From Candidatus Zhuqueibacterota bacterium (GTDB lineage Bacteria > Zhuqueibacterota > Zhuqueibacteria > Oceanimicrobiales > Oceanimicrobiaceae): a DNA stretch of 47,749 nt. Below, piece by piece: positions 26,811-47,749 of the stretch (position 1 is its first letter; each line of letters opens with the position of its first letter). Both the position numbers and the translations under genes were made by a program. The notes below the pieces were generated by a model. The model was not told where the DNA came from. It saw only the letters and a program-made list of their open reading frames with translations, and made no database searches. Where the stretch lies: contig JAJDAE010000353.1 in NCBI GenBank assembly GCA_029262035.1, positions 1 to 47,749 on the forward strand. The letters run 5' to 3'.

Positions 26811-26828
26811 GCTAAAACCCTAATTAAA

Positions 26829-27617: not shown

Positions 27618-27620
27618 AAA

Positions 27621-28424: not shown

Positions 28425-28438
28425 ATAGTTTTATGACA

Positions 28439-29207: not shown

Positions 29208-29238
29208 TCCTTAGAACCAAAGCGTAACAGAAATTAGT

Positions 29239-30875: not shown

Positions 30876-30891
30876 TTGGCACGCAAATTGC
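30876..30891 (+). promoter_or_regulatory. Sigma-54 (RpoN) promoter
   Basis: TTGGCACG-CAAA-TTGC matches the -24/-12 consensus (TTGGCACG-N4-TTGC) at every defined base, with the GG and GC dinucleotides 12 bases apart. Transcription would begin near 30903, giving a leader of about 75 bases before the kinase ATG at 30978. This is the clearest promoter in the window and implies activator-dependent expression of the kinase/FHA/phosphatase genes. Confidence 0.85.
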
Positions 30892-30977
30892 CAATTACCT
30901 AAAATTATTTATTTAATGAAGCTTTATTCATCTTTTCGATTAAAAAATCTTAGAAATTCTCTGAGGAAACCTGCTGC

Positions 30978-33584
30978 ATGACATTGAATAACAACCGCGC
31001 ATTGGACGACAAATACGAAATTGTACGTGAAATCAAAAAAGGTGGCTTTGGGATTGTTTACTTTGGCGTGGATAAAAAACTAAATAAACCTGTTGCGATT
31101 AAGGAGATTGCTCCAAACCTGCTTGATGATCCAAAGTACATTGACATGTTTCAGGAGGAAGCCCGTAACATTGCAAAATTAAATCATAACAATATTGTCC
31201 ATATTTATGAGCTCAAAAAAACTTCCGACAGACACCTTTATATAATAATGGAATATATTGAAGGCATTGATCTTGAGAAAGTTATTCGCTCATTAAAAAA
31301 AATCAGTAAGCCTCTTCCTCCTCATCTTGCTGTTTATATAATTTCCGAAATGTGTATGGCACTTGATTATGCGCACCAACGCAGGGATGCCTTTACAAAC
31401 AAACCACTCAATCTTGTTCATCAGGATATATCACCATCAAACATTATGATCTCTAAGTTTGGCAATGTTAAGCTTATTGATTTTGGTATTGCCACAGTAA
31501 GGAGACATCGGAAAGAAAAAAGAGATAACAAACTAAGGGGTAAAATACCATATATGGCGCCTGAGCAGCTCATAATGGGAAATCATCCCGATAATCGTTC
31601 AGACATATTTTCGCTCGGTCTCGTGCTAAATGAAATCATCACAGGAACAAGACTTTTTGCCAGCCACGAAGAAATTATTGCTGCAGGGAAAAGCCCAAAA
31701 TGGTTTAGAAAATCTCTAAAGGGGAAAAAAATCCCGCCTGCCCTTGCAAAGATTTTATTCAAGGCATTGGAAGTTGACCTTTCAAAGCGATATCAGTCAG
31801 CGAATCATATGTACATAGATCTGCTACAATATTTAATTTCCTGTAATGAAACAGGTGAGTTAATGGACGATTTATCAAGATTCCTGGCAAAATATGTCCC
31901 GACTTCATCTCTGGATACGCCAATTACTGCACCGACTGGATATAACACTCCGGCTCAAACTTCAAGAGAAGTTTCGAATGCTTCTTACTTTAATTCTTCT
32001 CCCGGCAACTCGTCAGATCCTTTTCAAGCGAGCCGGACAGCACCCAACTTTTCCTCAATTAGTCAAGTTACTCAACCTCAATCTTTGCCTAATCAGCCAA
32101 AGCTCAATAACACCAACCATAGCCGCCACGCAATTCCAAAACATCAACCCAATTATCAAACGATAGAATTCGATCTCGAAGAAGGAGAGGAAGAACTTAA
32201 AACAGTAATTGACGTTTTACGGGTTTCTGCTCGCAATAACAAAAAACACCTTTTTCAAATTGGTTTTTCAATCCTTTTTATGATTTGCTTGTTCGGTGTT
32301 TTTGATACGGTTAACGGTTGGACAAGGGCAGGTGTTTGGATTTACGATTTTATCTTTCCCCCTGCGATTGAAATAGTAACCCTACCTGCGAACGCTCAAA
32401 TTTATTTAGATGAAAACCCTGTTGAAGGGAAAACACCTTTGTCGATTGCTGAAATCAACCCGGGTGTCCATAAACTGGTGCTATCTCTTCCGGGCTATAA
32501 ACCAATTACACGATCTTTATTTGTACCCAGAGATGGTGCAATAAAAATTCAAGGCAAGTCCCAGATTCAGGATAATCGCAAATATTTATTTAGATTTTCT
32601 ACTGAAATTAGTATTGATTCTACGCCACCCAATGCACAGGTTTATATAAATGGAATGAGGTACAACCAAATAACGCCATGTAAAATTTCCTGGGAAGTAG
32701 GCAATCCGATATCTATTGCTTTGGAAAAACCTGGTTTTGAAAAACTAAGTGGCTTCAAACTCAATACGATTGATGGTTATGATGAAACTGAAGACCGCAG
32801 ATTTTGGGATTTGCAAGTAATTAATGACAACTCGACAACATATAACGTTACAGGTATTTTCAGGAAACGCGTTGTCATAGAAACAATTCCACCAGGTGTA
32901 GAAATTGTGGATGCAAACACAAAGCAAGTGCTTGGGATTACTGGCGAGGCGTCGGGCGTTTTTCTAATAGCAGGAAAACATAAGCTAGAACTCCGGAAAG
33001 ATAAATTTATTAACCGGCAAATGGAAATTACTATTGATGAATCTTTTGATGGTAAAATTCGGGAAGTTTTGCTACGGAAAGTCAGCTTTTCTGCTTATGA
33101 TTCAAACAGCGCCAATAGAAATGAAATTGGTGCAAATGTTATCAGTATAAAATCCAGCAACAAGGAATATTTAAGAAGGGCGCGAAAAACACCGTTTGAC
33201 ATAAATTTGCCGGCTTTGCTCTATTCAGTGGTTTTTACTAAGCCTGGTTTTAAAAGAACTACGCTCAGATTGGGTACGGAAGCTAGCACAACAAGTGCCC
33301 CAATGCAAAAAGAAATGGCTACATTGGGAATTATTGCATTGGATGCTTTAACAGAGCTTCCTTTGCCAGGGGTTGAAATTTACTACAATTTTTCTGACAG
33401 GCCGCAGACTCTGAATACTTTTCTTGATCAAACCAATTCAGTAGGGACAGCCCAAAGCACGATTGACGCAGGCAATTATATTCTATTGCTTAAGAAACCC
33501 GGGTATGCTGATTTAACAAAGTCTGTACAGGCTTTAGCCGGCAAGCCTACAAATTTAACTTTTAATCTATTTCCAACTAACTAA
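30978..33584 (+). CDS. Transmembrane Ser/Thr protein kinase with PEGA repeats
   Basis: 868 residues. The Hanks-type kinase domain (12-285) has the glycine loop KKGGFGIVYFG, Lys42 in VAIK, alpha-C Glu61, catalytic loop HQDISPSN (Asp150, Asn155; Arg of HRD is Gln), D168-F-G and APE at 194-196, so it should be active. A Ser/Pro/Asn-rich linker (300-400) leads to one membrane helix (about 424-446). Outside are PEGA-type repeats: two clear units start near 463 and 545 (TLPANAQIYLDENPVEGKTP), and two more diverged ones lie further on. Such domains usually face the envelope. The gene follows the sigma-54 promoter and heads the locus. Likely substrates are the FHA protein and its neighbours. Confidence 0.95.
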   Translation: MTLNNNRALDDKYEIVREIKKGGFGIVYFGVDKKLNKPVAIKEIAPNLLDDPKYIDMFQEEARNIAKLNHNNIVHIYELKKTSDRHLYIIMEYIEGIDLEKVIRSLKKISKPLPPHLAVYIISEMCMALDYAHQRRDAFTNKPLNLVHQDISPSNIMISKFGNVKLIDFGIATVRRHRKEKRDNKLRGKIPYMAPEQLIMGNHPDNRSDIFSLGLVLNEIITGTRLFASHEEIIAAGKSPKWFRKSLKGKKIPPALAKILFKALEVDLSKRYQSANHMYIDLLQYLISCNETGELMDDLSRFLAKYVPTSSLDTPITAPTGYNTPAQTSREVSNASYFNSSPGNSSDPFQASRTAPNFSSISQVTQPQSLPNQPKLNNTNHSRHAIPKHQPNYQTIEFDLEEGEEELKTVIDVLRVSARNNKKHLFQIGFSILFMICLFGVFDTVNGWTRAGVWIYDFIFPPAIEIVTLPANAQIYLDENPVEGKTPLSIAEINPGVHKLVLSLPGYKPITRSLFVPRDGAIKIQGKSQIQDNRKYLFRFSTEISIDSTPPNAQVYINGMRYNQITPCKISWEVGNPISIALEKPGFEKLSGFKLNTIDGYDETEDRRFWDLQVINDNSTTYNVTGIFRKRVVIETIPPGVEIVDANTKQVLGITGEASGVFLIAGKHKLELRKDKFINRQMEITIDESFDGKIREVLLRKVSFSAYDSNSANRNEIGANVISIKSSNKEYLRRARKTPFDINLPALLYSVVFTKPGFKRTTLRLGTEASTTSAPMQKEMATLGIIALDALTELPLPGVEIYYNFSDRPQTLNTFLDQTNSVGTAQSTIDAGNYILLLKKPGYADLTKSVQALAGKPTNLTFNLFPTN

Positions 33585-33600
33585 TCTTTTTATATAACAG

Positions 33601-36264
33601 ATGCCGAAACTGCTTATAAAAAAGGGGGAGTCAGTAATAAAAAAATTACTTATTCCCGAGAATATCGAAGCCTTTACCGTTGGGTGCGAAAAAGGCAATG
33701 ATATTATCATTGCTGATGATGCGATATCATTTTTCCACCTTCAAATTGAAAAACAAAATACTGATTATTTTATACGAGACTTGCAAAGTCAACGGGGGAC
33801 TTATGTCAATGGTAAAAAAATCTCTAACATAACACCGTTAAATCACCTTGACAATATACAGATAGGTGAGCATTCAATAGATTTTTTTGAAGAAAGCACA
33901 CCCGCCGCAAAAGCTGAGCAGCCTTCAGAAAGTGCAGCAGAAAAAAGGTTTGAGCAAGGGGAGCAATCGATATCACCTCTTGAAAAGCCCCACTCTTATC
34001 ATAATGGAACTGAAATCTCTCGGGAAGATTCGCACCAGAGAGAGCCTGCTCCTCGTAGGAATGGGTATGCAATAGATCAAGCACATGAAGAAGAAAAAAT
34101 CGACAACTTAAACCCTGACCGTTTTTTAAACAATGGTAACCAAAACTACAATTCAACAAATGAATATGATATAGGAAATATCCCTTCTGACTATGACATA
34201 AGCAATACTTACATCAGTAGCGATATCTCTTTAAATACAAATACGCCTCACATTTCAGAATCAGGCAACGGCCTGCCATTGGATTCAATTCTGGGAAATG
34301 ACTTGGAATCCAATCCATCGGGCTCTGCCCACTCTACATCAAGCGATGTAAAAGATAACTACTACTTGTTGTGCATTCATGGTTATTACCTTGGGCGAAA
34401 ATTTAAAATTAAGACACCGGAAACAAGAATTGGACGCGATAGAAAACTAAACGATATAATTATAAAGAAAAATTCAAAGGGCAACCTGGACCAGAGCGTT
34501 TCCAGAAGACATGCTACTTTAAAATTCAGAAAGAACAGGTGGTACCTCTCAGACAAAAGAAGTAAAAGCCGTACCTGGCTGAACCGTAAAGAATTAGGCG
34601 TTGAAGATGAGGCTAAAGTAAAACTCAACGACGAAATAGAAATAAAAAGTGACAAAAAAAGTCATATTTTTCGAATTGTAGAAAACGAAAACTGGAATTA
34701 CAGTTTACCTCGTAAAGCTGGAGCATGGCACTTAAGAAATGCACAAAAACTAATCTATGTCTTCTCTGCCCTGTTTATTATAAGTGCGATATTTCAATTT
34801 TCAAATGCTTTTTTTGAAAAAAGAAATATTACCCGGCAGCCCAAAAACTTACTGTTCGAAGAAGAACTCTGGGCATTCAAAGACTTGGACGCTAAATTCA
34901 CTAACCTTTCAAACCAAAATTTTTCACTTTTCCCGGCTGCAGGAGAGGTAAATAATGATGGCTATCTTGATCTTATTTATGTCAACAACAAAGGCTATGT
35001 AAGTTGTATTAGCGGGAGGACCAAAGAACTACTCTGGACAAACACGGATTTCAAAGCTTTTAAGCAAGTCCCCGTTTTATTAGAAGATTTGTACGGCAAA
35101 GGGGTTCCGGACATTATTGCAGTTTCACAAGAATCTCGAATACGAATTATCGACGGTAGCACGGGATACGAAATCAACAAAAGTCCCATATTAGCGGGTC
35201 CGCTATCGGGGGCGCCAGCGATTGGCGATTTTAATGGGGATGGGTTTCAGGACATTGCCATTACCTCCGCACAGAACGCTATCTACCTTGCCTTATCAAG
35301 TATAAAAGATTTTAACTGGACCAAAATTGATCTGGAATACCCAATCAAATCAATTATCAGTGTAGGCGATATTACAAAGGACGGTTTGGACAATATCTTT
35401 ATAGGAACCGAAAATGGCAAGTTACTTGTTTTGGATGGTCTTGGGAAAAGAATAATGAACCAAGTTGATATAAATGAGGAACTCAATAAGGCAATTGGGA
35501 CATTTGGACAAGACAACCAAATAAGATATCCTATTACAATTAGCGATGTTAATGGAGATACTACGCCTGATTTGGTTGTGAGTACAGAACAAGGAAATTT
35601 AATAGCTTTGAGTGGCGTTAACATAAACCGGCTTTGGTGTGATATCACCGTCGTCGATACCTCCACAACATTCGAGCAAGGTAATTCTGCAATTTCTTCA
35701 GGGGATCTGGATGGCGATGGGCTGTCAGATATCATTGTAAAATCAGGAACAGGAAACATAAAGGCCATTAAAAGTGCCAATGGCAGTAAGGACAGAATAA
35801 TAACCCTTTGGGAGCACCACTACGACCAAGCGCTTTGGGGGAATCCTGTTCTGGTAGATTTCAACAAAAATGGTACAATGGATGTATTGGTCACCACCCA
35901 GACAGGAATTATGACCATCTTTGAAGGGGCATCCGGACAGATAATATCAGCACACGATGCCGGCACAAAAATTGAAAGCCATCCACTCATCGGTAACTTT
36001 GATAATGACAATTACCTCGATGTCCTATTTCTAAAAAGTGATGGAAAATTTTATAAACTCCGTTCAAACAGTTCAATCCCAAACAATGCAGTTATCTGGG
36101 GCCAGGCATATGGTAATGGCCACAACACAAATATATCACTTTACAAAAGCCCTGATATAAGACAGTATTATGCAAAAATGAGCATATCATTTTTTATAAT
36201 TTTACTCGTTCTAACACTTAACTACCTGGTAATTCGTAGCAGAAGAAAATTGAGTTATTATTGA
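33601..36264 (+). CDS. Double-FHA protein with beta-propeller between two membrane helices
   Basis: 887 residues. FHA1 (1-95) keeps the later motif GTYVNGKKI, but the phosphopeptide-binding Arg is Cys29 (TVGCEKGND). FHA2 (254-355) is canonical: IGRD, SVSRRHATL, and WLNRKEL. Between them lies a 150-residue polar linker. A membrane helix (about 383-402) is followed by about eight repeats of the FG-GAP/VCBS type (DFNGDGFQDIAI, DLDGDGLSDIIV, DFNKNGTMDVLV), which should fold as a calcium-binding beta-propeller outside the cytoplasm. A second membrane helix (about 858-877) and a basic tail RSRRKLSYY end the protein. FHA2 would read phosphothreonine made by the upstream kinase. I know of no named family with this architecture. 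Confidence 0.92.
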   Translation: MPKLLIKKGESVIKKLLIPENIEAFTVGCEKGNDIIIADDAISFFHLQIEKQNTDYFIRDLQSQRGTYVNGKKISNITPLNHLDNIQIGEHSIDFFEESTPAAKAEQPSESAAEKRFEQGEQSISPLEKPHSYHNGTEISREDSHQREPAPRRNGYAIDQAHEEEKIDNLNPDRFLNNGNQNYNSTNEYDIGNIPSDYDISNTYISSDISLNTNTPHISESGNGLPLDSILGNDLESNPSGSAHSTSSDVKDNYYLLCIHGYYLGRKFKIKTPETRIGRDRKLNDIIIKKNSKGNLDQSVSRRHATLKFRKNRWYLSDKRSKSRTWLNRKELGVEDEAKVKLNDEIEIKSDKKSHIFRIVENENWNYSLPRKAGAWHLRNAQKLIYVFSALFIISAIFQFSNAFFEKRNITRQPKNLLFEEELWAFKDLDAKFTNLSNQNFSLFPAAGEVNNDGYLDLIYVNNKGYVSCISGRTKELLWTNTDFKAFKQVPVLLEDLYGKGVPDIIAVSQESRIRIIDGSTGYEINKSPILAGPLSGAPAIGDFNGDGFQDIAITSAQNAIYLALSSIKDFNWTKIDLEYPIKSIISVGDITKDGLDNIFIGTENGKLLVLDGLGKRIMNQVDINEELNKAIGTFGQDNQIRYPITISDVNGDTTPDLVVSTEQGNLIALSGVNINRLWCDITVVDTSTTFEQGNSAISSGDLDGDGLSDIIVKSGTGNIKAIKSANGSKDRIITLWEHHYDQALWGNPVLVDFNKNGTMDVLVTTQTGIMTIFEGASGQIISAHDAGTKIESHPLIGNFDNDNYLDVLFLKSDGKFYKLRSNSSIPNNAVIWGQAYGNGHNTNISLYKSPDIRQYYAKMSISFFIILLVLTLNYLVIRSRRKLSYY

Positions 36265-37610
36265 TGCTAAAAGATAAAAGAGTTAAAACTTCAACTTCTG
36301 TTTATAGTGATGTGGGCAAAGTTCGTAAAGCCAACGAGGACAGTTATTATGTATCACGAGATGAAAACCTTATAGTAGTCTGTGATGGAATGGGTGGTCA
36401 GGTTGCCGGTGGTCTTGCGAGTAAAATTGCAGTAGAAACTCTAAAAGACATATATGAAAATCTAAAAGAAAATGACATTGCTACTTTTTTATACGACAAT
36501 GAACTTGATTTTCCCTTATCTGCCAAGCGCCTCATTGCGGGAGTAAGAGTTGCCAACAGAAGAATATTCAGAATCTCCAAAAAAAATTCTAAACTAAGAG
36601 GTATGGGTACCACTGTTGTTGCACTCAGTCTTGATAGGCTCTTTGCAACAATGGCTCATGTGGGAGACAGCCGTATTTATAGAATAAACCGGGATCGGGT
36701 GTTACAATTAACCGAAGACCACTCCTGGCTAAACGAACTTATTGAAGATAAAGAAATAAATGAAGAGCAGATTGAAACATTTGCTCAAAAAAATGTCATT
36801 ACCAGGGCAATGGGTACCAGCCCAACTATTAAAATAGATATTCACTGTGAAAAATTTAAAAAAAATGATGTTTATCTTCTTTGTACTGACGGCTTGCACA
36901 CCTCTGTTGGCAAAACAGACATTGGAAAATCACATAAAAGAAGCAAGGGTAATTTAGACTACATAACCCGAAGTCTCGCAGAAAAAGCGCTCAAACGCGA
37001 CGGCTCAGATAACATTACTTTGGCAGTTGCAAGAGTAAATGATAACAGTAAAGAAACTAAAAAACCGGGTATTTCTATAACTCTTCCGGAAGAGGGAAGC
37101 AAAATAAGCTCCCGTATCGATAAATTTGTACTCGAACGTTATAGTGAACCTAAAATGAATATCAACAATAACCCTATCGTGAATACTATGAGTCATTCAA
37201 AATTTTATTTGCCCGGTATTATTGCAATAATTGGGCTCGTTGCGTTTTTACTTGGTATCTTTGTACAAGGAAGAAATTCCAGGCAGCCGCAGTATATTCA
37301 ACCACCTGTTACACAATCAAACGTTCTACCAACACATAGCAATTTACAAAACGCCAGCAATGGTTCAGCACAAATTCAACGTTCCATTATTGGCAAGGAT
37401 GCGGTCTTAGCTGTTGTTCTCTTTAACAGCACAAATGACTATAAAAAGGCAAAACTAAATGAAAGAGGCACGGTTATAGAAAACATTGCCCCTTTTTCCA
37501 GAGAAAACGACGCCAAATTCGACAAACAATTTAACATCTTCATGATAGACTCTGAGAGCAATGTTTTATATCGCTCTGAAGCTATTAGTTTACCCGGGAC
37601 TGCAAACTAA
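36264..37610 (+). CDS. Membrane-anchored PP2C-family Ser/Thr phosphatase
   Basis: 448 residues from the ATG at 36264, which overlaps the FHA gene stop as TGATG; an in-frame TTG one codon earlier is possible. The PP2C domain (about 10-260) shows the metal-binding motifs NEDSYYV, VVCDGMGG, HVGDSRIYRI, LLCTDGLHTSVG and GSDNITLAVAR. It resembles Stp/PppA-type phosphatases that oppose bacterial Ser/Thr kinases. A linker leads to one membrane helix (about 315-335, PGIIAIIGLVAFLLGIFVQG) and a 110-residue outer domain with no recognised family. The membrane anchor is unusual for PP2C enzymes of this type and places it beside the kinase and FHA protein. Confidence 0.94.
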   Translation: MLKDKRVKTSTSVYSDVGKVRKANEDSYYVSRDENLIVVCDGMGGQVAGGLASKIAVETLKDIYENLKENDIATFLYDNELDFPLSAKRLIAGVRVANRRIFRISKKNSKLRGMGTTVVALSLDRLFATMAHVGDSRIYRINRDRVLQLTEDHSWLNELIEDKEINEEQIETFAQKNVITRAMGTSPTIKIDIHCEKFKKNDVYLLCTDGLHTSVGKTDIGKSHKRSKGNLDYITRSLAEKALKRDGSDNITLAVARVNDNSKETKKPGISITLPEEGSKISSRIDKFVLERYSEPKMNINNNPIVNTMSHSKFYLPGIIAIIGLVAFLLGIFVQGRNSRQPQYIQPPVTQSNVLPTHSNLQNASNGSAQIQRSIIGKDAVLAVVLFNSTNDYKKAKLNERGTVIENIAPFSRENDAKFDKQFNIFMIDSESNVLYRSEAISLPGTAN

Positions 37611-37613
37611 GAA

Positions 37614-38012
37614 ATGATCGCTGTATTACCGTTTATTCTTCTATTTATATTCTTAATCGCCATGCTTGTCTGGTTTTCGCCGGATTTGCGCATAAACTAT
37701 CTGGTTTGGCGTGGAAACGACAAAAAGGCAAGATTATTAATTGAATCGATTTTGAACCAGAATCCTGAGCGTTTAAATCTCTATCATAAACTGGCAAAAA
37801 TTTATTATCTCGAAAATCGTCGTGACAAAAAAGCGTTACGAATTTATGAAACGATTCTGAAACTGAAAGTACCGTTTGAATGGCGCGATGAGCTATATAC
37901 AATTGTTGCCAAGCACTATGTCATGGAAGGCAGAAAAGACACAGACGCAATTCGGATCTTAGAAAAGGCTATAGATAAAGAAATTATACGCACAAAACGC
38001 ACAGCTTTTTAA
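37614..38012 (+). CDS. Small membrane TPR protein
   Basis: 132 residues. An N-terminal membrane helix (FILLFIFLIAMLVWF) is followed by two to three TPR-like helix pairs (ARLLIESILNQNPERLNLYH, KALRIYETILKLK, DAIRILEKAIDKE). It starts three bases after the phosphatase gene. It ends with tandem TAA TAA, and the downstream TPR-pseudokinase gene begins 15 bases later in the same frame, so together they look like one protein split in two. The cytoplasmic TPRs could dock the pseudokinase at the membrane. Confidence 0.8.
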   Translation: MIAVLPFILLFIFLIAMLVWFSPDLRINYLVWRGNDKKARLLIESILNQNPERLNLYHKLAKIYYLENRRDKKALRIYETILKLKVPFEWRDELYTIVAKHYVMEGRKDTDAIRILEKAIDKEIIRTKRTAF

Positions 38013-38027
38013 TAAGAAATTCCAGAT

Positions 38028-40505
38028 ATGCCTTCAATTGATATTCGAAAAAACAAAGAACTAATAGTCATGATTATGGCTCTGGCCGATGCCTATCTCG
38101 AAAAGGGCTTATATGCCGAAGCCGCAAAACGCTATAACCAGCTTTTGCAGTTTAATGTATCTAATAAGCAGCTATTCGGAAACTTCAGTAAAGTGCTAAT
38201 TGGCTTAAAGCTTTTTGATAAATTTGCGATGGGAATTTATCAAAAAGCTATTCAATACGACATAGCGAACAAAGAAATCTATATTGTTCTGGCAGATACG
38301 TTTTTAAAAGATAAGCGCGATGATGAGGCAGCAATGTATATTTATGAAACTGCTTTAAACTACAACTCACCAAATTCTAATAAATTAGGTTTAGCGCTTT
38401 GTGAAATTTACTATTTGCAAAATAACTTCCCAAAGTGCAAGGAGTTGTCCGAAAAAATCTTATTGACGGAAAGTTCAAATAAAAAAGTAATGAATTACTA
38501 TTTGAGATCTATTGAAAAAACTGCCCAATTCGATGATGCAGCGAACATTTTAAAAAAGCTTCTTGATACAAGTAATAATAAAAAACCTCTATTGCAGCGC
38601 TTGTCAAAGCTCTATCTTCTAAAATGTTTTAACGCAAATAGCGAAACAGTACGTTTTAGCTTTATTGACAGACAGTACGTCATTGACTTTCTAAATACGG
38701 TCACGAATTTTGAAAAGCTACAGGATATCTCATTTTATCTTGAGCTAAAGAGATTTTTGATCAACAAAAAATACTGGGGTGAATTAGCCTATATTTTACC
38801 ACAGCAATCGAGTGGAATGGAAATAGATTTTGACTCATCCATGTTCCGCGCCGAAAGCCCTGCATTGGGAGGAAGAGGCGGTGTTTTTGATATTTGTAAT
38901 GAAGTCATCAATAAAATCAGCCCGATTGATGAACTCACCGAAAACAGTCTAACTCCCCGTTCATCTCTCACTTATGATGATTTCCAGAATGATGGCGCAC
39001 CGATATATAATATGGCAAATGAAACTGAAAGAAAATCAGCACCGCCAAAAAATACTGAAATTATTATGTGCTTTGAATTTTCCAACTTTGACGAGTTGAA
39101 AGAAAAATATAACCGGACAGACCTGGAGAAACTTTTAAACAAATTTTATGCATATCTCCTCGGTCTCTTTGAGAGCTATCAGATTCGGCAAATTTGGGGC
39201 GCCAATAACGGATTTGTGCTTTTCACCAAAGACATTTATAAATCGATCACAATTTCAATTGACTTGTTAAACCGGTTGAGCCAGAAAAATTTCGAGAATG
39301 ATTTGGAGGACAGTATAAATATTTCTATTGGAATTCACCATACAGGGGATTTCGAGACCCTCAGCGAAGAACAGGCACTGAATGGTTTAGCCGCAGCCAT
39401 TAAAGCTTCAACGGTTAATATGCACGACCTTGCAGAAAATGAAAGACAAGAGATAGGCAGGTTGGTACAAAAATCTAATAGAATTATTTTGAGTGATTCA
39501 ACATTCAATTTTATTAAGGATTCAAACAGATATAAGGTTCAATATCTCGGGCAACCAAAGTTAAAATACCTTGATGAAAGCTTTGGTTTGCATGAAGTTT
39601 ACTGGCGCAACCCAAGCAATGAACTCAAATTCGGTCAAATCAGAAAGTTGGGTAGGTTTGAATTATTAGCTGAATTAAGCAACAAGCATTCAATTAAAGT
39701 ATACAAAGCTAAGGATGCCGATTTACAGAGATTAGTGATTTTAAAAGTCATTCAATCTGAACGCTTTAACTCATTACCGGCCAACAATCCCCAAAAAATG
39801 CAATTCTACCAAATTGCCCAGGCTCAAGGTCAAATGAACCATCCTAACATTGTAAATATCTACGAGTTAGATGAGGATCAAGGCTTAACATATATTGCAA
39901 GGGAATACATAGAAGGTACAAACCTTACGAAAGTATTTCAGCCAGGTACCTTTACAATTGATCGTTTTATCAAAATTATTTATCAGGTATTTAAAGGTCT
40001 GCAATATAGTCACAGACTCAGCTTTTTTCATTTAAATTTAAAACCCACCAATATTCTGGTTACAAAGAACGATGAAACAAAACTAGCAGACTTTCTAATT
40101 CCAGGGTTCCTTATAGATGATGCAAAAAAATCATCCACACCAAATGATACGAATACCTACAACTCACCAGAACAATTTCAAGCTCAACAGCTCGACGGAC
40201 GAAGTGATATTTTCTCTATGGGCGTAATTATGTATCAAATAATAACGCAAAGACACCCTTTTGTTGTTAAAAACAATAATGATATTAAGAATGCTATTTT
40301 AAATAAAGAACCGCTGCCACCCTCGGAGGCAAACAATAAGGTTCCCAGAGTTGTCGATTTGATGATACTAAAATGTCTTGAAAAAGAACCGGAGAAACGA
40401 TTTCAATCTGTTGAAGAAGTCGTTAATCTACTAAAAAAGAACTTTGAAAGAACCTTATTTTCGAATTTTAATTATCAAATTTCGAAATCACGGGATTCAT
40501 ACTAA
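38028..40505 (+). CDS. TPR, degenerate cyclase-like and pseudokinase fusion protein
   Basis: 825 residues, no membrane segment. Residues 10-260 are TPR repeats. Residues 343-525 follow the class III nucleotide cyclase pattern (FEFSNFDEL, WGANNGFVLF, INISIGIHHTG, SNRIILSDSTF), but the two metal-binding Asp positions appear to be Glu350 and Asn394. Residues 540-810 form a Hanks-type kinase fold with Lys573 (VILK), but the glycine loop is lost, the alpha-C Glu is Ile596, HRD reads HLN (Asn670) and DFG reads DFL. Both enzymatic domains thus look inactive, so a binding or scaffold role is inferred. No strong ribosome-binding site precedes the ATG, so it probably depends on coupling. It is the last signalling gene before the pilin-like gene. 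Confidence 0.88.
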   Translation: MPSIDIRKNKELIVMIMALADAYLEKGLYAEAAKRYNQLLQFNVSNKQLFGNFSKVLIGLKLFDKFAMGIYQKAIQYDIANKEIYIVLADTFLKDKRDDEAAMYIYETALNYNSPNSNKLGLALCEIYYLQNNFPKCKELSEKILLTESSNKKVMNYYLRSIEKTAQFDDAANILKKLLDTSNNKKPLLQRLSKLYLLKCFNANSETVRFSFIDRQYVIDFLNTVTNFEKLQDISFYLELKRFLINKKYWGELAYILPQQSSGMEIDFDSSMFRAESPALGGRGGVFDICNEVINKISPIDELTENSLTPRSSLTYDDFQNDGAPIYNMANETERKSAPPKNTEIIMCFEFSNFDELKEKYNRTDLEKLLNKFYAYLLGLFESYQIRQIWGANNGFVLFTKDIYKSITISIDLLNRLSQKNFENDLEDSINISIGIHHTGDFETLSEEQALNGLAAAIKASTVNMHDLAENERQEIGRLVQKSNRIILSDSTFNFIKDSNRYKVQYLGQPKLKYLDESFGLHEVYWRNPSNELKFGQIRKLGRFELLAELSNKHSIKVYKAKDADLQRLVILKVIQSERFNSLPANNPQKMQFYQIAQAQGQMNHPNIVNIYELDEDQGLTYIAREYIEGTNLTKVFQPGTFTIDRFIKIIYQVFKGLQYSHRLSFFHLNLKPTNILVTKNDETKLADFLIPGFLIDDAKKSSTPNDTNTYNSPEQFQAQQLDGRSDIFSMGVIMYQIITQRHPFVVKNNNDIKNAILNKEPLPPSEANNKVPRVVDLMILKCLEKEPEKRFQSVEEVVNLLKKNFERTLFSNFNYQISKSRDSY

Positions 40506-40540
40506 AGAGTTGAGTAAGACAAATTTTAAATATTTTCGCA

Positions 40541-40576
40541 AATGTGGTCATCCACCGGACCACGAAAGGAGGTGAT
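40541..40576 (+). promoter_or_regulatory. 5' leader of pilin-like gene: hairpin plus perfect SD (STAB-SD-like)
   Basis: A hairpin (GTGGTC at 40544-40549 with GACCAC at 40558-40563, 8-nt loop) is followed at once by GAAAGGAGGTGAT (40564-40576), a perfect complement to the 16S rRNA 3' end. No usable start codon follows; the pilin ATG is 92 bases further and has its own AAGGAG. This recalls the STAB-SD element (GAAAGGAGG) of Bacillus cry3A mRNA, where a bound ribosome protects the 5' end from decay. Confidence 0.6.
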
Positions 40577-40668
40577 AAATAATTTATCGGGGGAAATAAA
40601 TTACAATACTTATTTCATAACTATGCAAATAATTTTAATCCATTTAACTAAATTAAGGAGTACATTTT

Positions 40669-41085
40669 ATGGGACAACAACAACTTTTACTTATTGTGTT
40701 GAGCACAATTATTGTTGGTATCTCTATTGCTGTTGGTATTAACATGGTCACCTCAAGCTCGGGGCAGGCCAACTTTGATGCCGTTATGCAAGACGTAATC
40801 ACCGTTAGTGAGAGAGCTCGCGAATGGTACCGCAAACCAGAGTTAATGGGCGGCGGCGGGAATTCATTTGCTGATATAGCTGCAGGTACTACTGATATGA
40901 TCGATCTTTTAGGCTGGCCAGCAAACAATGCAAATGGAGATTATACCGTTTCAACTGCCGGTAACGCAACTTCAGTAGTCTTTCAGGGTACAGGTACTGA
41001 AGATGGTGATCAGGACGGCACCTTACTCAGAATCCAAGTTCAAGCTTACAGAGATAGCTTGGTAACAACCGTAGTTAATCGTTAG
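40669..41085 (+). CDS. Pilin-like major subunit candidate with two-residue leader
   Basis: 138 residues. The N-terminus MGQQQLLLIVLSTIIVGISI has a Gly at position 2 followed directly by a polar triplet and an uncharged helix of about 20 residues, as in class III (prepilin-type) signals with cleavage after Gly2. The usual +5 Glu and +1 Phe are missing. The rest is a small polar domain rich in Gly, Asn, Thr and Asp, with GTEDGDQDGT as a possible metal-binding loop; there is no Cys. Position just before the PilC/PilB/PilT-like genes, its own AAGGAG, a stabiliser-like leader and a following terminator suggest an abundant fibre subunit. Identity as a pilin is inferred. Confidence 0.72.
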   Translation: MGQQQLLLIVLSTIIVGISIAVGINMVTSSSGQANFDAVMQDVITVSERAREWYRKPELMGGGGNSFADIAAGTTDMIDLLGWPANNANGDYTVSTAGNATSVVFQGTGTEDGDQDGTLLRIQVQAYRDSLVTTVVNR

Positions 41086-41105
41086 TAAAACAGAGTAATA
41101 ATATT

Positions 41106-41146
41106 AAGGCAGGCACTAGCTGTGTAAATTGTGTCTGCCTTATTTT
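41106..41146 (+). terminator. Terminator or attenuator after the pilin-like gene
   Basis: AAGGCAGGCAC (41106-41116) pairs with GTGTCTGCCTT (41131-41141) over 11 bp with one G-U pair, 14-nt loop, followed by ATTTTAT. It lies 20 bases after the pilin stop and 18 bases before the platform gene. The weak T run suggests partial read-through, so that the subunit is made in excess over the machine. Confidence 0.7.
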
Positions 41147-41163
41147 ATAAATAGACGGAACTT

Positions 41164-42507
41164 ATGCCGGAATTCAGATACAAAGGAATCAATGTCGCAG
41201 GCAAGCCCATTCAGGGTATTCTTTTTAGCCCCGACATAAAAACGGTTAAGGCCAAAATTCGAGATGTGGTCAAAACCAAGGGCGTTAGAATTGATAGTAT
41301 TGATAAAAAAAATGCATATCTATACAAGGTGCGTCGCGGCACGGAAAAACCTATCTTCGGAGAGCAAAAGGCATTTTCTGAAAACGAGGTCCAAAATGCA
41401 CTTGTCAAGATGGGCTACAGGGTTTTTTACGTCCGCAAAAAATTACTTAATTTCAACTTTAAGGTTCCAACTAAAGATTTGGTTCTTTTTATCAGAATTA
41501 GCGCGGACTTATTAAAAGAAAAATTCCCTTATGATGAAATTCTGACACTTGTTGGACAAGATACAGAAAATAAGAGACTGCGTGAAGCACTGTTAGATAT
41601 TCAAAAAGATTTAAAAGCCGGAAATGAGGGGCAGATTGTATATGGCAAACATGCCGACGTTTTCGGCAGATTTACTTCTCACATGTTAGCAGTTGCCTCT
41701 ACCAGTGGCAATATGGCCGAAATTTATGAAAGTACTGCGAAGTTCCTGGAAAGAGACCAGGAATTCAAAAGCAACATCAGGTCAGTCATGGTCATGCCGG
41801 TTGTGGTTATGGGGGCAATGTTTATTGCCATGGGTTTCTATGTGATGTATATTTTCCCCCAAATGACAGAAATGCTAATTAAACATAATATTGACATCCC
41901 CCCTATGACCAAGTTCACTCTGGACTTAAGTCATTTTTTGCAGAATTACTGGTGGGGTGTTTTAATGCTCACGGTAGGGCCGATACTTTTCTTATTAAGC
42001 TGGATTAAAACCGAAAAAGGCCGCTATTTCTTCGACCAGAACATTATCGGAGTACCTGTCATCGGCTCACTTTTGCAAAAAACGAGTATAGAAATATTTT
42101 GCCGGGTTTTCTATTCATTATATAGTACTTCCGGTGAAAATGTTACCGCAATCCGTATTGCTGCAGAATCCTGCCGCAATAATTTTATTGAAAAACAAAT
42201 TAACAACTCTGTAATTCCACGCATGCTAAAAGACGGCAGGAGTTTTGTTGAATGCCTGGCAAGAACAAACTGCTTTACTGTAACCGCAGTACGACGCTTA
42301 AAATCCGGCGAAGAATCCGGTACACTGCGCGAAACGGCCAGGCAAATGGCCAATTATTATGAAAACGAAAATAAGCACAAAATGTCGCATCTTCTCGACA
42401 CAATAAATGTACTGGTTTCCGTTGTCATTACGTTACTTATTGTAGCATTAACATTAGTTTCATCCGAAATTGGTTTTGTCAGTCCACCATCACCGCTAAG
42501 TCATTAA
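41164..42507 (+). CDS. Type IV pilus/type II secretion inner-membrane platform protein (PilC/GspF-like)
   Basis: 447 residues. An N-terminal 120-residue cytoplasmic region (EFRYKGINVAGKPIQGILFS is the usual GspF start) precedes two T2SSF domains. Three membrane segments are seen near VMVMPVVVMGAMFIAMGFYV, WWGVLMLTVGPILFLLSWI and LLDTINVLVSVVITLLIVAL. The domains carry ASTSGNMAEIYESTAKFLER and LKSGEESGTLRETARQMANY, the repeated E-x-G motif of the family. It is the rotor-like platform between the assembly ATPases and the growing fibre. Confidence 0.94.
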   Translation: MPEFRYKGINVAGKPIQGILFSPDIKTVKAKIRDVVKTKGVRIDSIDKKNAYLYKVRRGTEKPIFGEQKAFSENEVQNALVKMGYRVFYVRKKLLNFNFKVPTKDLVLFIRISADLLKEKFPYDEILTLVGQDTENKRLREALLDIQKDLKAGNEGQIVYGKHADVFGRFTSHMLAVASTSGNMAEIYESTAKFLERDQEFKSNIRSVMVMPVVVMGAMFIAMGFYVMYIFPQMTEMLIKHNIDIPPMTKFTLDLSHFLQNYWWGVLMLTVGPILFLLSWIKTEKGRYFFDQNIIGVPVIGSLLQKTSIEIFCRVFYSLYSTSGENVTAIRIAAESCRNNFIEKQINNSVIPRMLKDGRSFVECLARTNCFTVTAVRRLKSGEESGTLRETARQMANYYENENKHKMSHLLDTINVLVSVVITLLIVALTLVSSEIGFVSPPSPLSH

Positions 42508-42517
42508 ATACAGAATT

Positions 42518-44368
42518 ATGATAAAAAAAATAGATAAAAAGACCGATCAGGACAAACCAACTATCACTGCGGAAATCAACCTCAGGCCGCAGACCAAAGG
42601 TCTTGGAAGATTGTCGCAAACTTTGATCGAAAAGGGCATTGTTTCTGAAAGTATCCTACAAGACGCTGTAGACACACAAAGTAGAGAACCGCGCAGTAGT
42701 AAGCGCAAACTTATTGATATATTGATTGATGATTTTAGCGTCAACCGAAATTCAATCTTTATTGAAATGTCAAAATTATATGGTTTCCAAATCATTAATT
42801 TGAATGAAGCGCAAGAAGACCGCGGGCGAATTGACTTCATTAAAGACATCGTTCACAAAATGCCGGAAGAGCTCTCCAATGAACTGCTGCAGAAAAAAGT
42901 AATTCCGTTTAAGTGGCATGAATTCAAGAAGGACGTGCTGGTTTTTGTAACCGGAGATCCTACTAATGAAGAATTTCATTCTCTTGCCAAAAAAATGAAA
43001 ATCGCAGACTTTGATATTGCGTATGCTCCGATTGAAGATATTCAAAACCTCATTCATGAAATCTTCTATTCAAACAATGAATTTTTGCAAAAGATTTTTG
43101 ACGATGCGGAAGAAATTGAAGTATTTGATGACAATAATAAGCAGGTCGATGAAGACGCTTTAGACAGCGAAATCAATAAAAGCCGTCTCGTAAATCTAAT
43201 TGAAGGAATGCTGGTTGAGGCAGTAAGAAGAAATGCCAGTGATATCCACGTTATACCTAAAGATGGAACCGCGACTGACATTTACTTTCGTATTGATGGA
43301 AAACTTATTCATTGGTATACGCAAACGGAAATACGACCTGAAGCGTTAATTGCTGTTGTAAAAGACCGGTCAGTCAACATCGATCGCTTTGACCGCTCAA
43401 TTGCACAGGATGGCTTTATTCAAAGAAAAGTCGATGGTTATTATATCAGGTTCCGTGTTTCGGTAATTCCCATTGTAGGTATCGAATTCGACCGAAAATT
43501 TGAGAGTGTTGTAATTCGTGTGCTTGATGACCGCAAAGTGATTACCGATCTCGAAAAAATCGGCTTGCAAAAGCGAGCGTTTAATGATTTTATAAAAGCT
43601 ATTGAGCAACCGCAAGGCATGGTCATTCTAACCGGCCCAACAGGAAGTGGAAAAAGTACAACTCTGGTCGCTGCCCTCAGCCATGTTACAGATTCCAGTA
43701 AAAATGTTTTGACTGTTGAGGAACCTGTGGAATACCTAATTGAGGGTGCCCGTCAAATTAAACTTAATCCAAAACTCAATTTTGACGGCGCACTGCGGTC
43801 CATATTGCGACACGATCCTGATATCGTTATGGTCGGAGAGATGAGAGACCTGAAATCTGCAGGAATTGCTATCTCCCTGGCCAACACAGGCCACCTCACC
43901 TTTTCCACCCTGCATACAAATGATGCAACGAGCGCGATTTCAAGGCTTTATATGCTTGGCGTTGAACCTTTCTTAATAGCCAATGCAATCAATCTGGTAA
44001 TGGCGCAAAGACTTGTTAGAAAGTTATGTGAAAATTGCAAAAGACCTTTGGAGAGTCCTGACCCCAATAAACTGATGGCCCTGGGTTTTAGCAAAGAAGA
44101 ACTGGCCAACACCGTATTTTACGAAGCTGTTGGTTGTGACCAATGCTATGATGGGTACAGAGGCCGCGTTGCAATCACTGAGGCTCTATACTTTGACCAG
44201 GAAATCAGAAAAGAGATTATCACAGCGAAAGATGATATAGACGAAGAAGCCATTAGAACTATTGCCGAACAAAATAACACATTAACTCTGAGAGCTTCCG
44301 GCCGGGAAAGAATTAAAGCCGGCACGACGACTATTGGAGAAATAATATCTGCAACTGTGGATGCTTAA
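42518..44368 (+). CDS. PilB/GspE-like assembly ATPase
   Basis: 616 residues. An MshE/T2SSE N-terminal domain (about 30-190, with RLSQTLIEKGIVSE) precedes the ATPase core: Walker A GPTGSGKSTT at about 372, Asp box, Walker B-like VGEMRDLKSA and His box HLTFSTLHTNDATSAI. A four-Cys zinc motif (CENCKRP and CDQCYDG) near the C-terminus is typical of extension ATPases of the PilB/GspE class. It powers fibre growth from the cytoplasmic face of the platform protein. Spacing to the platform gene is ten bases. Confidence 0.96.
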   Translation: MIKKIDKKTDQDKPTITAEINLRPQTKGLGRLSQTLIEKGIVSESILQDAVDTQSREPRSSKRKLIDILIDDFSVNRNSIFIEMSKLYGFQIINLNEAQEDRGRIDFIKDIVHKMPEELSNELLQKKVIPFKWHEFKKDVLVFVTGDPTNEEFHSLAKKMKIADFDIAYAPIEDIQNLIHEIFYSNNEFLQKIFDDAEEIEVFDDNNKQVDEDALDSEINKSRLVNLIEGMLVEAVRRNASDIHVIPKDGTATDIYFRIDGKLIHWYTQTEIRPEALIAVVKDRSVNIDRFDRSIAQDGFIQRKVDGYYIRFRVSVIPIVGIEFDRKFESVVIRVLDDRKVITDLEKIGLQKRAFNDFIKAIEQPQGMVILTGPTGSGKSTTLVAALSHVTDSSKNVLTVEEPVEYLIEGARQIKLNPKLNFDGALRSILRHDPDIVMVGEMRDLKSAGIAISLANTGHLTFSTLHTNDATSAISRLYMLGVEPFLIANAINLVMAQRLVRKLCENCKRPLESPDPNKLMALGFSKEELANTVFYEAVGCDQCYDGYRGRVAITEALYFDQEIRKEIITAKDDIDEEAIRTIAEQNNTLTLRASGRERIKAGTTTIGEIISATVDA

Positions 44369-44479
44369 AGAACAATTTTCAGCTTTTAAAGTGACCGCAA
44401 AATCTTGAACTATTTTAATGTTTTGCCAGGAAAAATTCTTAGCAAATAAACTTAAGACTTAACCAATAAAACAAAAAGT

Positions 44480-45712
44480 ATGAACTTCGGGGAAAGTAAA
44501 GAACTTTTAAGCAAACTGGCTGAAAACATGAAAAATCAGTTTGCCGGAGCCAATAGATGGAAGTTTATCGGTGAGTTATTAGATGACAATCCTGAGGAAG
44601 TCAAACTGCATTTAAAAACGCATTTCGACACCTTCTTGCTCAGGATGAAAACAAACGATGCTTCAGACATAGATTTGGGTGGCCCTGGTTGTCATGACAA
44701 AATTTGGTTTAGGCGATTTGGCATTAAAAGCCCTGATGAAAGCCTCCAGAAATACACATCCGACGAAACAGATATCCTCATTTTCAATCTACTGATTGAC
44801 TCTGACAGGAAACATTTATTTGAACAGCGTTACATCGACTTTTCCTATCGTGTTTATGATAAAGAACTGGATTACTGGACGCGTTTTAGAGCAACGGTGT
44901 ATTTTGATTTGACCCACCTAGCCGTAAACATGCGGCGCGTCAACGACACGGTCGTCAGTTTTCCGAAGCTTGGTTTCAATGAGCAAATCGCAAAAGTTTT
45001 AAGTCTTAAATATCAGAAGTCCGGTTTAATCTTGGTAACCGGAATTACCGGCTCCGGTAAAAGTACCACTCTGGACTCCATTATCGATGCCAATAACCGG
45101 ACGATGGAATCACACATTGTCATCATTGCAGACCCGATCGAATATGTTCATCAACCCAATAAATCTATTGTTAAGCATCGCGAGGTTGGGCGCGATGTCC
45201 GCTCTTTTAAAGAAGGTACGACACAGGCACTAAGACAAGATCCCGACATTATAATGATTGGTGAGATGCGTGATGCCGAAACAATTATGACTGTGCTTGA
45301 AGTCGTTGACAGCGGCCATAAAGTGTTTTCTACCCTTCATACTTCATCGGCTGTGGAAAGTATTGACAGAATACTTGGTGAAATTCCCACGAATGAACAA
45401 GAACGGATACGCAACCGGCTGGCGGACACTTTGAGCTGTGTGATTTCTCAAAAATTGATACCCAGCGAAGATGGAAAACGTGTTCTCGCGAAAGAAATTT
45501 TGCTTAACAACGGCTCTATTAAAACCGCCATTCGCAACAATAACCTTGGGGAAATTTATCAAATCATCCACCAATCAGGTGAACTGGGGATGAATACTAT
45601 GGAGCAAGATTTAGCACGACTTCATTCGGATAATAAAATTTCCTACTTTGAAGCATTTATCAATTCAAACAACAAAAAACGCTTAGAAGAACTGGTTAAA
45701 TACGATTATTAA
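44480..45712 (+). CDS. PilT-like retraction ATPase
   Basis: 410 residues with no zinc-Cys motif. A PAS-like N-terminal part (to about 165) precedes Walker A GITGSGKSTT (about 188), PIEYVHQPNKS, Walker B IMIGEMRDAET and His box HKVFSTLHTSSA. The C-terminal AIRNNNLGEIYQIIHQSG and GMNTMEQDLARL match PilT-type proteins. It should drive fibre disassembly, which points to a retractile type IVa-like pilus rather than a type II secretion system. The N-terminal region is longer and less conserved than in classical PilT. The 111-bp gap before it holds no clear signal. Confidence 0.93.
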   Translation: MNFGESKELLSKLAENMKNQFAGANRWKFIGELLDDNPEEVKLHLKTHFDTFLLRMKTNDASDIDLGGPGCHDKIWFRRFGIKSPDESLQKYTSDETDILIFNLLIDSDRKHLFEQRYIDFSYRVYDKELDYWTRFRATVYFDLTHLAVNMRRVNDTVVSFPKLGFNEQIAKVLSLKYQKSGLILVTGITGSGKSTTLDSIIDANNRTMESHIVIIADPIEYVHQPNKSIVKHREVGRDVRSFKEGTTQALRQDPDIIMIGEMRDAETIMTVLEVVDSGHKVFSTLHTSSAVESIDRILGEIPTNEQERIRNRLADTLSCVISQKLIPSEDGKRVLAKEILLNNGSIKTAIRNNNLGEIYQIIHQSGELGMNTMEQDLARLHSDNKISYFEAFINSNNKKRLEELVKYDY

Positions 45713-45715
45713 ACT

Positions 45716-47662
45716 ATGAACCCACGACACGCAATCGGAATAACAATCAATGGCAACGAAGTCAGAGCAGCCTTTCTAACTCTGGTGCGCGGAAAAGCCC
45801 GTATTAAAGCACTGGAATCGATAAAGCTTGAAGATACACTTGAAAATCTTGAAAAGGGGGATTCTGAAGCAATTAACGATCTTGAAAATGCATTTGACAT
45901 TCAAGAACCCAGACCAGAACCGGAAGAAAATGAGAACGAAGATTTTTCAAGCCATTCAAGTAAAGATAAAAATGTTAGCCTGGTTTATTCCTTGCTAGAT
46001 AAATTTCGAAACCAAAAATCGTCTGTTGCTATCAATACCCCTCACCTCACTGTTAAGTACGACTATCTTGATGGTGATCAAATACCCGGAAAAAAGAAGG
46101 GTGGTTTTTTTAAAGGAAAAGTGGACATTGGAGACGAAGACCAGAGCGATGACTCCAGACGTTCAGTTTACCTGTCAATTAGTGACGACAAACATTTAGA
46201 GGTTAACTACGAATATCATCCTTCCAGTATTGAACTCATCGAGGAAGTCAATCAGTTCAGATCAAGCAATTTAAACCTTGTTCTGATGGATACCAATGAA
46301 TTGGCGCTGGTAGATCTTGTCAACGAAATTTATAAATTTGAAAAAGATGACATTACAGCAATTGTCTATATAGAGCAAGACTTCTCCAGGGTGATTTTTT
46401 TAAAGGGCCGAGAAATCTATCACATCACGCCGATTGTTCACAAAGGCAGTATGTCAGACGATGTGCTCGAAGTCATTTACAGTAAAATGATTTTTGCTCA
46501 AGATCATTACTTTATCCCCGAATTCACAAAAATACTTGTCGCCGGCCATTCCTCACGCCTTAAAGCAAAATATTATTTCAGGCAGAAATTCCCATCGGCT
46601 ATAACAGGGTATTTAAATTCAAAAAAGATAGAATCTGACCTGCGCTTTAAAGACAGAGGGATGTTGTTTTCAAGGTATGCGGTACCCATTGCCCTTTCAT
46701 GGAAAGCACTTCAAAAAAATATTGTAAAATCTAAAAGCAACTTACTGCCAGACTACATCCTTGAAAGCAAAACCATTCCCAAGCTGGCTCTCCATGGGTA
46801 TGTGCTTTTAATTTTTCTGGCAGCAACGGCATTTTTCTTTTCCTGGGCTTTGGTCAAAAAGAATATAGAAATAACAGCAGTTGAAAATGACGTCAAGCAA
46901 ATGCGGACTCAAATTAAAAATAACACATCCCTAACAAACCGCGTTCACTCATTCGACGACAAAATTATCAACCTTGAACGTAGAATTGTTCTGGTTGATA
47001 GTTTCAGTAAAGGCTACGACGAAACCATTAGCTTTTTGCGGCGCTTAAACGATGGAATTGGTAAAACAAATGACATCTGGATAACTGACCTCAAAAAAAG
47101 TAAGCAGAGTATAAACTTAGCAGGTATGGCTTTAAAAAGAAATAAAATACCTCAACTTGTCAGTGAAATTGGCGGGGCAAATCTAAAAAAACAAACCAGG
47201 GCAAATTTTAATGGTCGTGATATTTACGCCTTTCAAATTGAAAAAAAGTTAGACGAAAAAGAGAAAAGTAAGTCATCTGACTTTCTTACTTTTTTATCCG
47301 GTAAACGCAAGAAAGTCAATGAAGAAGGAAATAGCAAATTAAATATTCAAAATGGTTCGACAGCCAAAATTGGCACTAACGGGCATGCTACAAATGGTCA
47401 CAGTCTCAACTATGCTTATGGCGTTCAAATTGGAAAGTTCGGTTCACAATTAGAGGCCAAAAGAAAATCATCCGAATACAAGAGCAAAGGATACCCTATT
47501 AGAATAAGTAAAATTAATACTAAAAGTACTCAGAATAAATATACGATTATTATAGGACAGTTTGAGACGCCCGAAACAGCAAAACAATTTCTGAATAACC
47601 TTGACCGGACTTCAACGGGGCAAGCAAGTAAAGTCGTTAAGTACAAAGTAAAATCATCATAA
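45716..47662 (+). CDS. PilM-PilN-SPOR fusion protein
   Basis: 648 residues. The start RHAIGITINGNEVRAAFLTL and the segments LVLMDTNELALVDLVNEIY and AIVYIEQDFSRVIFLKGRE follow the actin-like PilM fold (to about 350). One membrane helix (about 358-382) leads to a PilN-like periplasmic coiled coil and ferredoxin-like region (LRRLNDGIGKTNDIWITDL). The last 75 residues are a SPOR domain (YGVQIGKFGSQLEAK), which binds peptidoglycan strands stripped of peptides. PilM and PilN normally are two proteins joined through a short PilN tail. The fusion makes the link permanent and adds wall binding. Confidence 0.85.
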   Translation: MNPRHAIGITINGNEVRAAFLTLVRGKARIKALESIKLEDTLENLEKGDSEAINDLENAFDIQEPRPEPEENENEDFSSHSSKDKNVSLVYSLLDKFRNQKSSVAINTPHLTVKYDYLDGDQIPGKKKGGFFKGKVDIGDEDQSDDSRRSVYLSISDDKHLEVNYEYHPSSIELIEEVNQFRSSNLNLVLMDTNELALVDLVNEIYKFEKDDITAIVYIEQDFSRVIFLKGREIYHITPIVHKGSMSDDVLEVIYSKMIFAQDHYFIPEFTKILVAGHSSRLKAKYYFRQKFPSAITGYLNSKKIESDLRFKDRGMLFSRYAVPIALSWKALQKNIVKSKSNLLPDYILESKTIPKLALHGYVLLIFLAATAFFFSWALVKKNIEITAVENDVKQMRTQIKNNTSLTNRVHSFDDKIINLERRIVLVDSFSKGYDETISFLRRLNDGIGKTNDIWITDLKKSKQSINLAGMALKRNKIPQLVSEIGGANLKKQTRANFNGRDIYAFQIEKKLDEKEKSKSSDFLTFLSGKRKKVNEEGNSKLNIQNGSTAKIGTNGHATNGHSLNYAYGVQIGKFGSQLEAKRKSSEYKSKGYPIRISKINTKSTQNKYTIIIGQFETPETAKQFLNNLDRTSTGQASKVVKYKVKSS

Positions 47663-47666
47663 TATT

Positions 47667-47749
47667 ATGTTTGCAAAAAGAAACAGCTTAACATTAGTCT
47701 TAATTTGGATTGTGATACTCGCAGTCGGCACATTCTGGTATTTTCAAGA
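47667..47749 (+). CDS. PilO-like membrane protein, partial (cut by window end)
   Basis: An ATG five bases after the upstream stop opens a frame that stays open to the window edge (27 codons): a short basic start MFAKRNS and a membrane helix (LTLVLIWIVILAVGTFWYF). The size of the visible part and the place after a PilM/PilN gene suggest PilO, the alignment subcomplex partner. This is inferred from position and topology only. Confidence 0.6.
   Translation, partial: MFAKRNSLTLVLIWIVILAVGTFWYFQ

Follow-up and report, generated by a model that had tools for sequence, protein, structure and literature searches.

A membrane phosphothreonine module merged with a type IV pilus-like gene cluster in one family of Candidatus Zhuqueibacterota suggests a fibre motor switched by threonine phosphorylation

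Results

A five-gene kinase module is encoded upstream of pilus genes

The window analysed here, a whole stretch of 47,749 nucleotides, is contig C283 of the 5.3-Mb Candidatus Zhuqueibacterota (KSB1) genome G000, which is assembled in 372 contigs. From position 30978 to the contig end, the plus strand carries 10 complete genes and the beginning of an 11th, in the order STK-A, FHA-propeller, PP2C, small TPR, TPR/pseudokinase, pilin, PilC, PilB, PilT, PilM-N-SPOR and the start of PilO. The gene set claimed for this strand in an initial annotation was entirely present at its coordinates, in agreement with Pfam and NCBIfam, which backed all gene names except that of the pilin. The same annotation described a tight spacing, and most junctions are indeed short: 16 bp between STK-A and FHA-A, a 4-bp overlap between FHA-A and PP2C, 3 bp between PP2C and the small TPR gene, 15 bp between the latter and the pseudokinase gene, 10 bp between PilC and PilB, and 3 bp at both PilT/PilM-N and PilM-N/PilO. 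The description does not hold around the pilin gene, separated by 163 bp from the pseudokinase gene and by 78 bp from PilC, or before PilT (111 bp from PilB).

The first five genes form what we call module A. STK-A (30978–33584, +) is predicted to be an active Ser/Thr kinase, with a transmembrane (TM) helix, three PEGA domains, a carboxypeptidase-regulatory-like domain and a juxtamembrane KT409VID sequence. The catalytic Lys, the HxD Asp, the Asn and the DFG motif were intact in all 16 sequences compared (STK-A and its homologues). STK-A resembles PknB-type kinases in its kinase fold, Hanks motifs and transmembrane layout with a periplasmic sensor, but carries PEGA in place of PASTA domains and scored 226 against NF033483, for which the PASTA-kinase cut-off is 450. 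FHA-A (33601–36264, +) consists of a degenerate FHA-1 domain, an intact FHA-2 domain, a TM helix, an FG-GAP propeller and a second TM helix. FHA-1 lacked the arginine of the GR motif in 14 of 15 sequences; the FHA-2 residues R279, S301, R302, H304 and N328, which correspond to the phosphothreonine-binding positions, were invariant in 16 out of 16. The PP2C phosphatase (36261–37610, +) retains the DGMGG, GDSR, TDG and DN motifs, and is followed by a small protein with a TM helix and TPR repeats (37614–38012, +). Hydropathy analysis gave one TM helix each in the kinase, the PP2C and the small TPR protein, two in the FHA-propeller protein and none in the pseudokinase protein.

The last protein of module A (38028–40505, +) combines TPR repeats, a cyclase-like domain and a pseudokinase in which HLN replaces HRD. 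The HRD Asp was absent from all 15 homologues (HxN in 14, another non-Asp residue in one). The AlphaFold model placed TPR repeats at residues 1–255, a domain at 343–530 and a PknB-like kinase fold, for which the best Foldseek matches were PknB-type kinases; the C-terminal part is thus predicted to be a kinase fold devoid of its catalytic Asp. For the domain at 343–530, the predicted order of strands and helices was compatible with a cyclase fold, no more. Its match to the class III cyclase family reached 16.2 bits for a Pfam cut-off of 21.9, and by eye the metal-binding Asp residues were not kept. Searches against solved structures and Pfam returned just this sub-threshold cyclase match, and an active cyclase was rejected. 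The "kinase/FHA/PP2C triad" of the initial annotation is therefore present, but as part of a five-gene module that includes a pseudokinase, and with a second set beyond the machine (see below).

Given these residue states, the FHA-propeller protein and the pseudokinase could act as constitutive envelope anchors for the pilus, with signalling being secondary. Such a role would fit the degenerate FHA-1 and the consistent absence of the catalytic Asp from the pseudokinase, and has a precedent in the type VII secretion system T7SSb, where the pseudokinase EssB contacts the FHA domains of EssC (PMC10765036). In both cases a pseudokinase and FHA domains are found together in a membrane machine; T7SSb has no active kinase or PP2C, and the EssC FHA domains lack the phosphate-binding residues that FHA-2 retains. 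Full conservation of the kinase and of the FHA-2 binding residues would be needless for a pure scaffold, and the machine of other families is encoded without FHA-propeller and pseudokinase genes. We regard a scaffold role as improbable.

The pilus-like machine bears a kinase module at both ends

The gene at 40669–41085 (+) encodes the putative major pilin, with an MGQQQLLL N-terminus that was invariant in 17 homologues of the class. No Pfam family matched it. The AlphaFold model (pLDDT 83) showed a single 54-residue N-terminal helix and a four-stranded sheet, a predicted type IV pilin fold. The best Foldseek matches were type IV pilins, all with E > 0.1; the top hit, minor pilin 4noa (E 0.11, probability 0.72), is not significant alone. 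These pilins have neither the basic class III leader nor Glu5, and we therefore refer to the machine as pilus-like, a divergent type IV pilus (T4P). The same start, MGQQQLLL(I/L)VL, characterises an unusual group of pilins kept across the class (40669–41085 here; loci L148–L166), and minor pilin-like proteins begin alike, with MG followed by a hydrophobic stretch. A single prepilin peptidase gene was found, elsewhere in the genome (contig C193). The genome also contains pilus or secretion clusters with canonical GFTLVEL pilins (C150, C193) and other secretins (C150, C189; loci L170, L171, L173).

The pilin gene is followed by genes for the platform protein PilC (41164–42507, +; T2SSF, 5e-32), the extension ATPase PilB (42518–44368, +; T2SSE), which carries a family-specific N-terminal tail, PT15IT17AEI, and a PilT-family ATPase (44480–45712, +; TIGR01420, E 3e-94, 316.1 bits, just below the cut-off of 319.1). 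A PilM-PilN fusion with a C-terminal SPOR domain (45716–47662, +; weak PilN and SPOR matches) precedes PilO (47666–47749, +). A PilO-like gene had been annotated, and PilO is present, but the window holds merely its first 28 codons and the remainder lies on contig C137. The first 141 bp of C137 exactly repeat the end of the window, an assembly overlap of the k-mer type. It encodes, in order, PilO, a 412-aa secretin (PF00263), three pilin-like proteins, STK-B, FHA-B, a 610-aa TPR protein and pseudokinase-B, beyond which lies a gene resembling type III pantothenate kinase. The same order is uninterrupted on single contigs of two other genomes (G003 and G005), showing that the join between the window and C137 is real. 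The T4P core thus forms one cluster, with PilB, PilC and PilM-N in the window and PilO and the secretin on C137, and this cluster bears a kinase module at both ends (A and B).

The merger is specific to one KSB1 family

Relatives were mostly metagenome-assembled genomes (MAGs) of candidate division KSB1 (Candidatus Zhuqueibacterota, FCB group) and of Calditrichaeota. Family f1, a KSB1 family of uncultured bacteria to which the window belongs, was represented by eight genomes (G000–G007). The junction between module A and pilin was found in the four family genomes with a long enough contig (G000, G002, G003 and G005); in G001, G004 and G007 the contig ends before the junction could be read. Module B followed secretin or pilin-like genes in 6/6 genomes where it was found (G000, G001, G003, G005, G006 and G007). 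No module B was found in G002, where the pilin-like genes run directly into the gene that flanks B elsewhere. G004 (89% complete) is a possible exception: module A is present, with no PilMN or PilB detected. The same order recurs in other genera at about 43% FHA identity, ruling out a chance arrangement; a chance or artefactual assembly was likewise excluded, since the independent MAGs G002, G003 and G005 share the order.

Outside the family, PilMN relatives were found in eight further families. In 19 genomes from other families, pilin, PilC, PilB, PilT, PilMN, PilO and secretin genes were clustered, with varying completeness where contigs end. None of these 19 neighbourhoods contained STK-A-like or FHA-propeller genes; one (L148) had a kinase-domain ORF on the other strand. 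In several other families (L156, L157, L162, L163), the secretin gene adjoins a large lipoprotein-like one that has an ILADG motif and, by eye, resembles invasin-type Ig domains. The clusters of the KSB1 family showed no such gene; their far end is taken up by pilin-like genes and module B.

The reverse was also found: families f4, f6, f8, f9 and f11 have standalone STK-FHA-PP2C-(TPR)-pseudokinase modules, and so does G000 itself, as a third copy, C. The FHA tree resolved A, B and C as one clade each (100/100 support), with A and B both outside the clade holding C. Module C loci (L056 on contig C116 of G000, L044, L074 and L089) have conserved upstream neighbours of unassigned role on the opposite strand. 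More distantly, Elusimicrobia MAGs (L085–L087, L090) carry an FHA-propeller gene paired with a PP2C gene, and some of these loci also have kinases. The pair lies next to genes for a PorV-like protein and, judged by eye, perhaps an S-layer-homology protein; its flanks show no pilus genes.

Divergent from module A, the minus strand at 25267–30570 encodes a SpoIIE-type phosphatase, an RsbW-like ATPase, a STAS protein and an Mla lipid transporter. This cluster is kept beside module A in the family and also flanks standalone modules: it was seen in G040, G025 and G031, and is kept in f9 and f11. The most parsimonious account is that, in the ancestor of the family, the pilus cluster was joined to module A at A's former site and that B took the other end. 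As other families have the machine without the module and the module without the machine, the merger is specific to one lineage and a general property of neither part. The proposal that the module is joined to the pilus machine therefore held at every readable family junction, but at class level the two halves lie apart, which the initial annotation had named as a finding that would count against the link. Most relatives have the module alone, and its original function thus requires no pilus.

These data also bear on whether the two halves are mere neighbours. An STK-FHA-PP2C module for general envelope sensing could share the site, and perhaps a σ54 promoter, while acting on unrelated targets as it would when standalone. 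The standalone modules of five other families and copy C, the old SpoIIE/RsbW/STAS/Mla neighbours retained by module A and the finding that family-specific Thr are not enriched in the machine (see below) are all consistent with this possibility, to which we give appreciable weight while thinking it unlikely. It does not readily account for modules from separate FHA clades flanking one machine, for junctions that persist across genera, for a σ54 element and an NtrC of the pilus type next to module A, or for the family-specific PilB tail.

A conserved σ54-type element precedes module A

A σ54-type -24/-12 element, TGGCACGCAAATTGCC, was identified at 30877–30892 (+), about 100 bp upstream of STK-A. 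The pattern TGGCAYR-N4-TTGC was found upstream of STK-A in all six family genomes, at about 85–105 bp except in G004, where it lies 233 bp from the called start; it occurred at nine sites in all 701 kb of strand searched. When the window alone was scanned with one mismatch allowed, the site was not above chance, and the promoter call therefore rests on conservation. A slightly looser pattern gave no site within 350 bp upstream of three standalone homologues or of pilin genes. With the patterns used, no site preceded the pilin clusters of other families, save a loose one before a PilT gene. A σ54-type site was also noticed before the kinase of L044, a copy of module C.

The genome encodes rpoN. 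An NtrC-type σ54 activator made of a response regulator, an AAA+ domain and a Fis helix-turn-helix (Pfam) is encoded at 23831–25171 (-). Among dozens of paralogues in G000, it was the best match to the NtrC encoded beside the pilus cluster of G040 (51% versus 45% for the next), and it probably regulates the cluster. Transcription may extend from module A into the machine, and the 163-bp gap before pilin leaves room for a separate promoter. Scans for σ70 promoters and terminators gave counts no higher than shuffled sequences. Just 3' of pilin, a hairpin followed by T's (41108–41145; GGCAGGCAC...GTGTCTGCC) looks attenuator-like by eye; it is absent from the list of the terminator scan.

The σ54/NtrC pair and the anti-sigma-type neighbours would fit a module that sets the amount of pilus made instead of acting on the motor, as the Arn network does for the archaellum (PMC5300886). 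The FHA protein sits in the membrane with two TM helices and has no DNA-binding domain, the module holds no transcription factor, and standalone loci keep the kinase module without any fixed regulator gene; we consider control of expression to be an unlikely function of the module.

Candidate phosphosites in the kinase and in PilB

The linker between the kinase domain and the TM helix is variable except for one island, made of acidic residues, K/R (N in one sequence), T409, V/I, I and D. This [KR]T[VI]ID island was found in every class homologue covering the region, apart from module A of genus g2, in which T409 is replaced by A (G007) or P (G001). In two Elusimicrobia kinases encoded in the vicinity of distant FHA-propeller genes, EKTVID precedes a basic stretch. 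Thr followed by Asp at +3 is a classical form of FHA ligand, as for Rad53 FHA1.

In PilB, the tail reads KPTITAEI, KPTITEEI, KSTITAEI or NPTITSEI in four family genera, four sequences in all. This TITxEI tail was found only in the KSB1 family, the PilB proteins of other families beginning at the following domain. T17 has Ile at +3. A comparison of conserved Thr specific to the family in machine proteins showed no overall excess (5 of 57 invariant Thr, a share close to the mean for other residues), and the PilB tail was the sole standout. We propose T409 of the kinase and T15/T17 of PilB as candidate phosphosites. In G007, PilB lacks the tail motif and kinase A lacks T409, and kinase B retains the Thr. 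Joint loss of T409 and of the PilB tail in g2 is a single event and suggestive only.

Discussion

Our data describe a conserved cluster in which a retractile-type pilus machine and a membrane phosphothreonine module have merged, and suggest a fibre motor switched by threonine phosphorylation. We found no description of such an arrangement of kinase module and pilus in the open-access literature. By analogy, the module most likely represents a switch working like the threonine-phosphorylation pathway of the type VI secretion system (T6SS), retargeted to a type IV pilus. In Agrobacterium, PpkA phosphorylates Thr14 of TssL and Fha binds it (PMC3953482). Both systems encode a membrane Ser/Thr kinase, an FHA protein and a PP2C with a membrane machine. 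The T6SS FHA protein reads a phosphothreonine on a machine part; for the KSB1 module, T409 and T15/T17 are candidate sites. It also differs in that its machine is a type IV pilus, in combining two FHA domains with a β-propeller, and in its extra TPR and pseudokinase proteins. FHA-A scored 41.2 bits against the VI_FHA/TagH family (cut-off 120.25), and no T6SS core gene was linked to the module, whose neighbours are pilus genes. The parallel with PpkA/Fha1/PppA drawn in the initial annotation is thus a fair analogy, the three enzyme types being found together, but the module does not belong to that pathway.

The nearest precedents for such a machine are the Arn network and the FHA-bearing Tad-like systems. 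The Arn network (ArnA, an FHA protein, ArnB, the kinases ArnC and ArnD, and PP2A) also places an FHA protein, Ser/Thr kinases and a phosphatase in control of a type IV pilus-like machine, but acts on expression via soluble repressors encoded elsewhere, whereas the KSB1 components are membrane proteins encoded in the machine's own cluster. FHA domains are tied to motors of the type IV filament superfamily in the Tad-like Kil apparatus of Myxococcus (PMC8460266) and in class III CpaF ATPases with an N-terminal FHA domain (PMC12019362). In those systems the FHA domain is fused to the ATPase or found in accessory proteins; in KSB1 it belongs to a separate membrane protein encoded with a kinase and a PP2C, and PilB, PilT and the secretin are of the T4aP type.

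We infer that phosphothreonine may control the motor, with moderate, indirect support from three pointers: the shared σ54 promoter, the kinase Thr motif and the family-specific PilB tail. Our preferred but tentative model, which we hold at somewhat less than even odds, is that one KSB1 family joined a T4P cluster to a membrane phosphothreonine module that already existed, and that the kinase switches PilB via FHA-2. Both the kinase, by way of its periplasmic PEGA domains, and the FHA protein, by way of its propeller, would sense the envelope. Once active, the kinase would autophosphorylate on the Thr of the juxtamembrane [KR]T[VI]ID sequence, which would recruit FHA-2. It might also phosphorylate the short N-terminal tail of PilB, which FHA-2 would tether; the extension motor would thereby be brought to, or kept at, the envelope platform, tipping the balance against retraction by PilT. 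This more detailed scheme, in which FHA-2 reads both the tail and the KTVID Thr and recruitment of PilB is the phospho-switch that opposes PilT, is possible though doubtful. The TPR/pseudokinase protein could serve as a non-catalytic adaptor and the PP2C would reset the switch, while the σ54 promoter and the NtrC regulator would couple expression of module and machine. Against this mechanism we count that the machine works without the module in other families, the lack of an excess of family-specific Thr, a PilB tail known from four sequences, the 163-bp gap, and the gene content of G004 and G002.

Kinase-FHA-phosphatase sets that switch type VI secretion were already known, as were FHA domains in Tad-like machines. 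Here, a module that is mostly standalone in relatives has, in one family, been joined to a retractile pilus cluster at either end, and it offers short, testable candidate phosphosites, KTVID next to the kinase TM helix and TITxEI in PilB. If the proposed mechanism is true, this family shows how a portable kinase-FHA-phosphatase switch with its own pseudokinase gets reassigned to a new machine.
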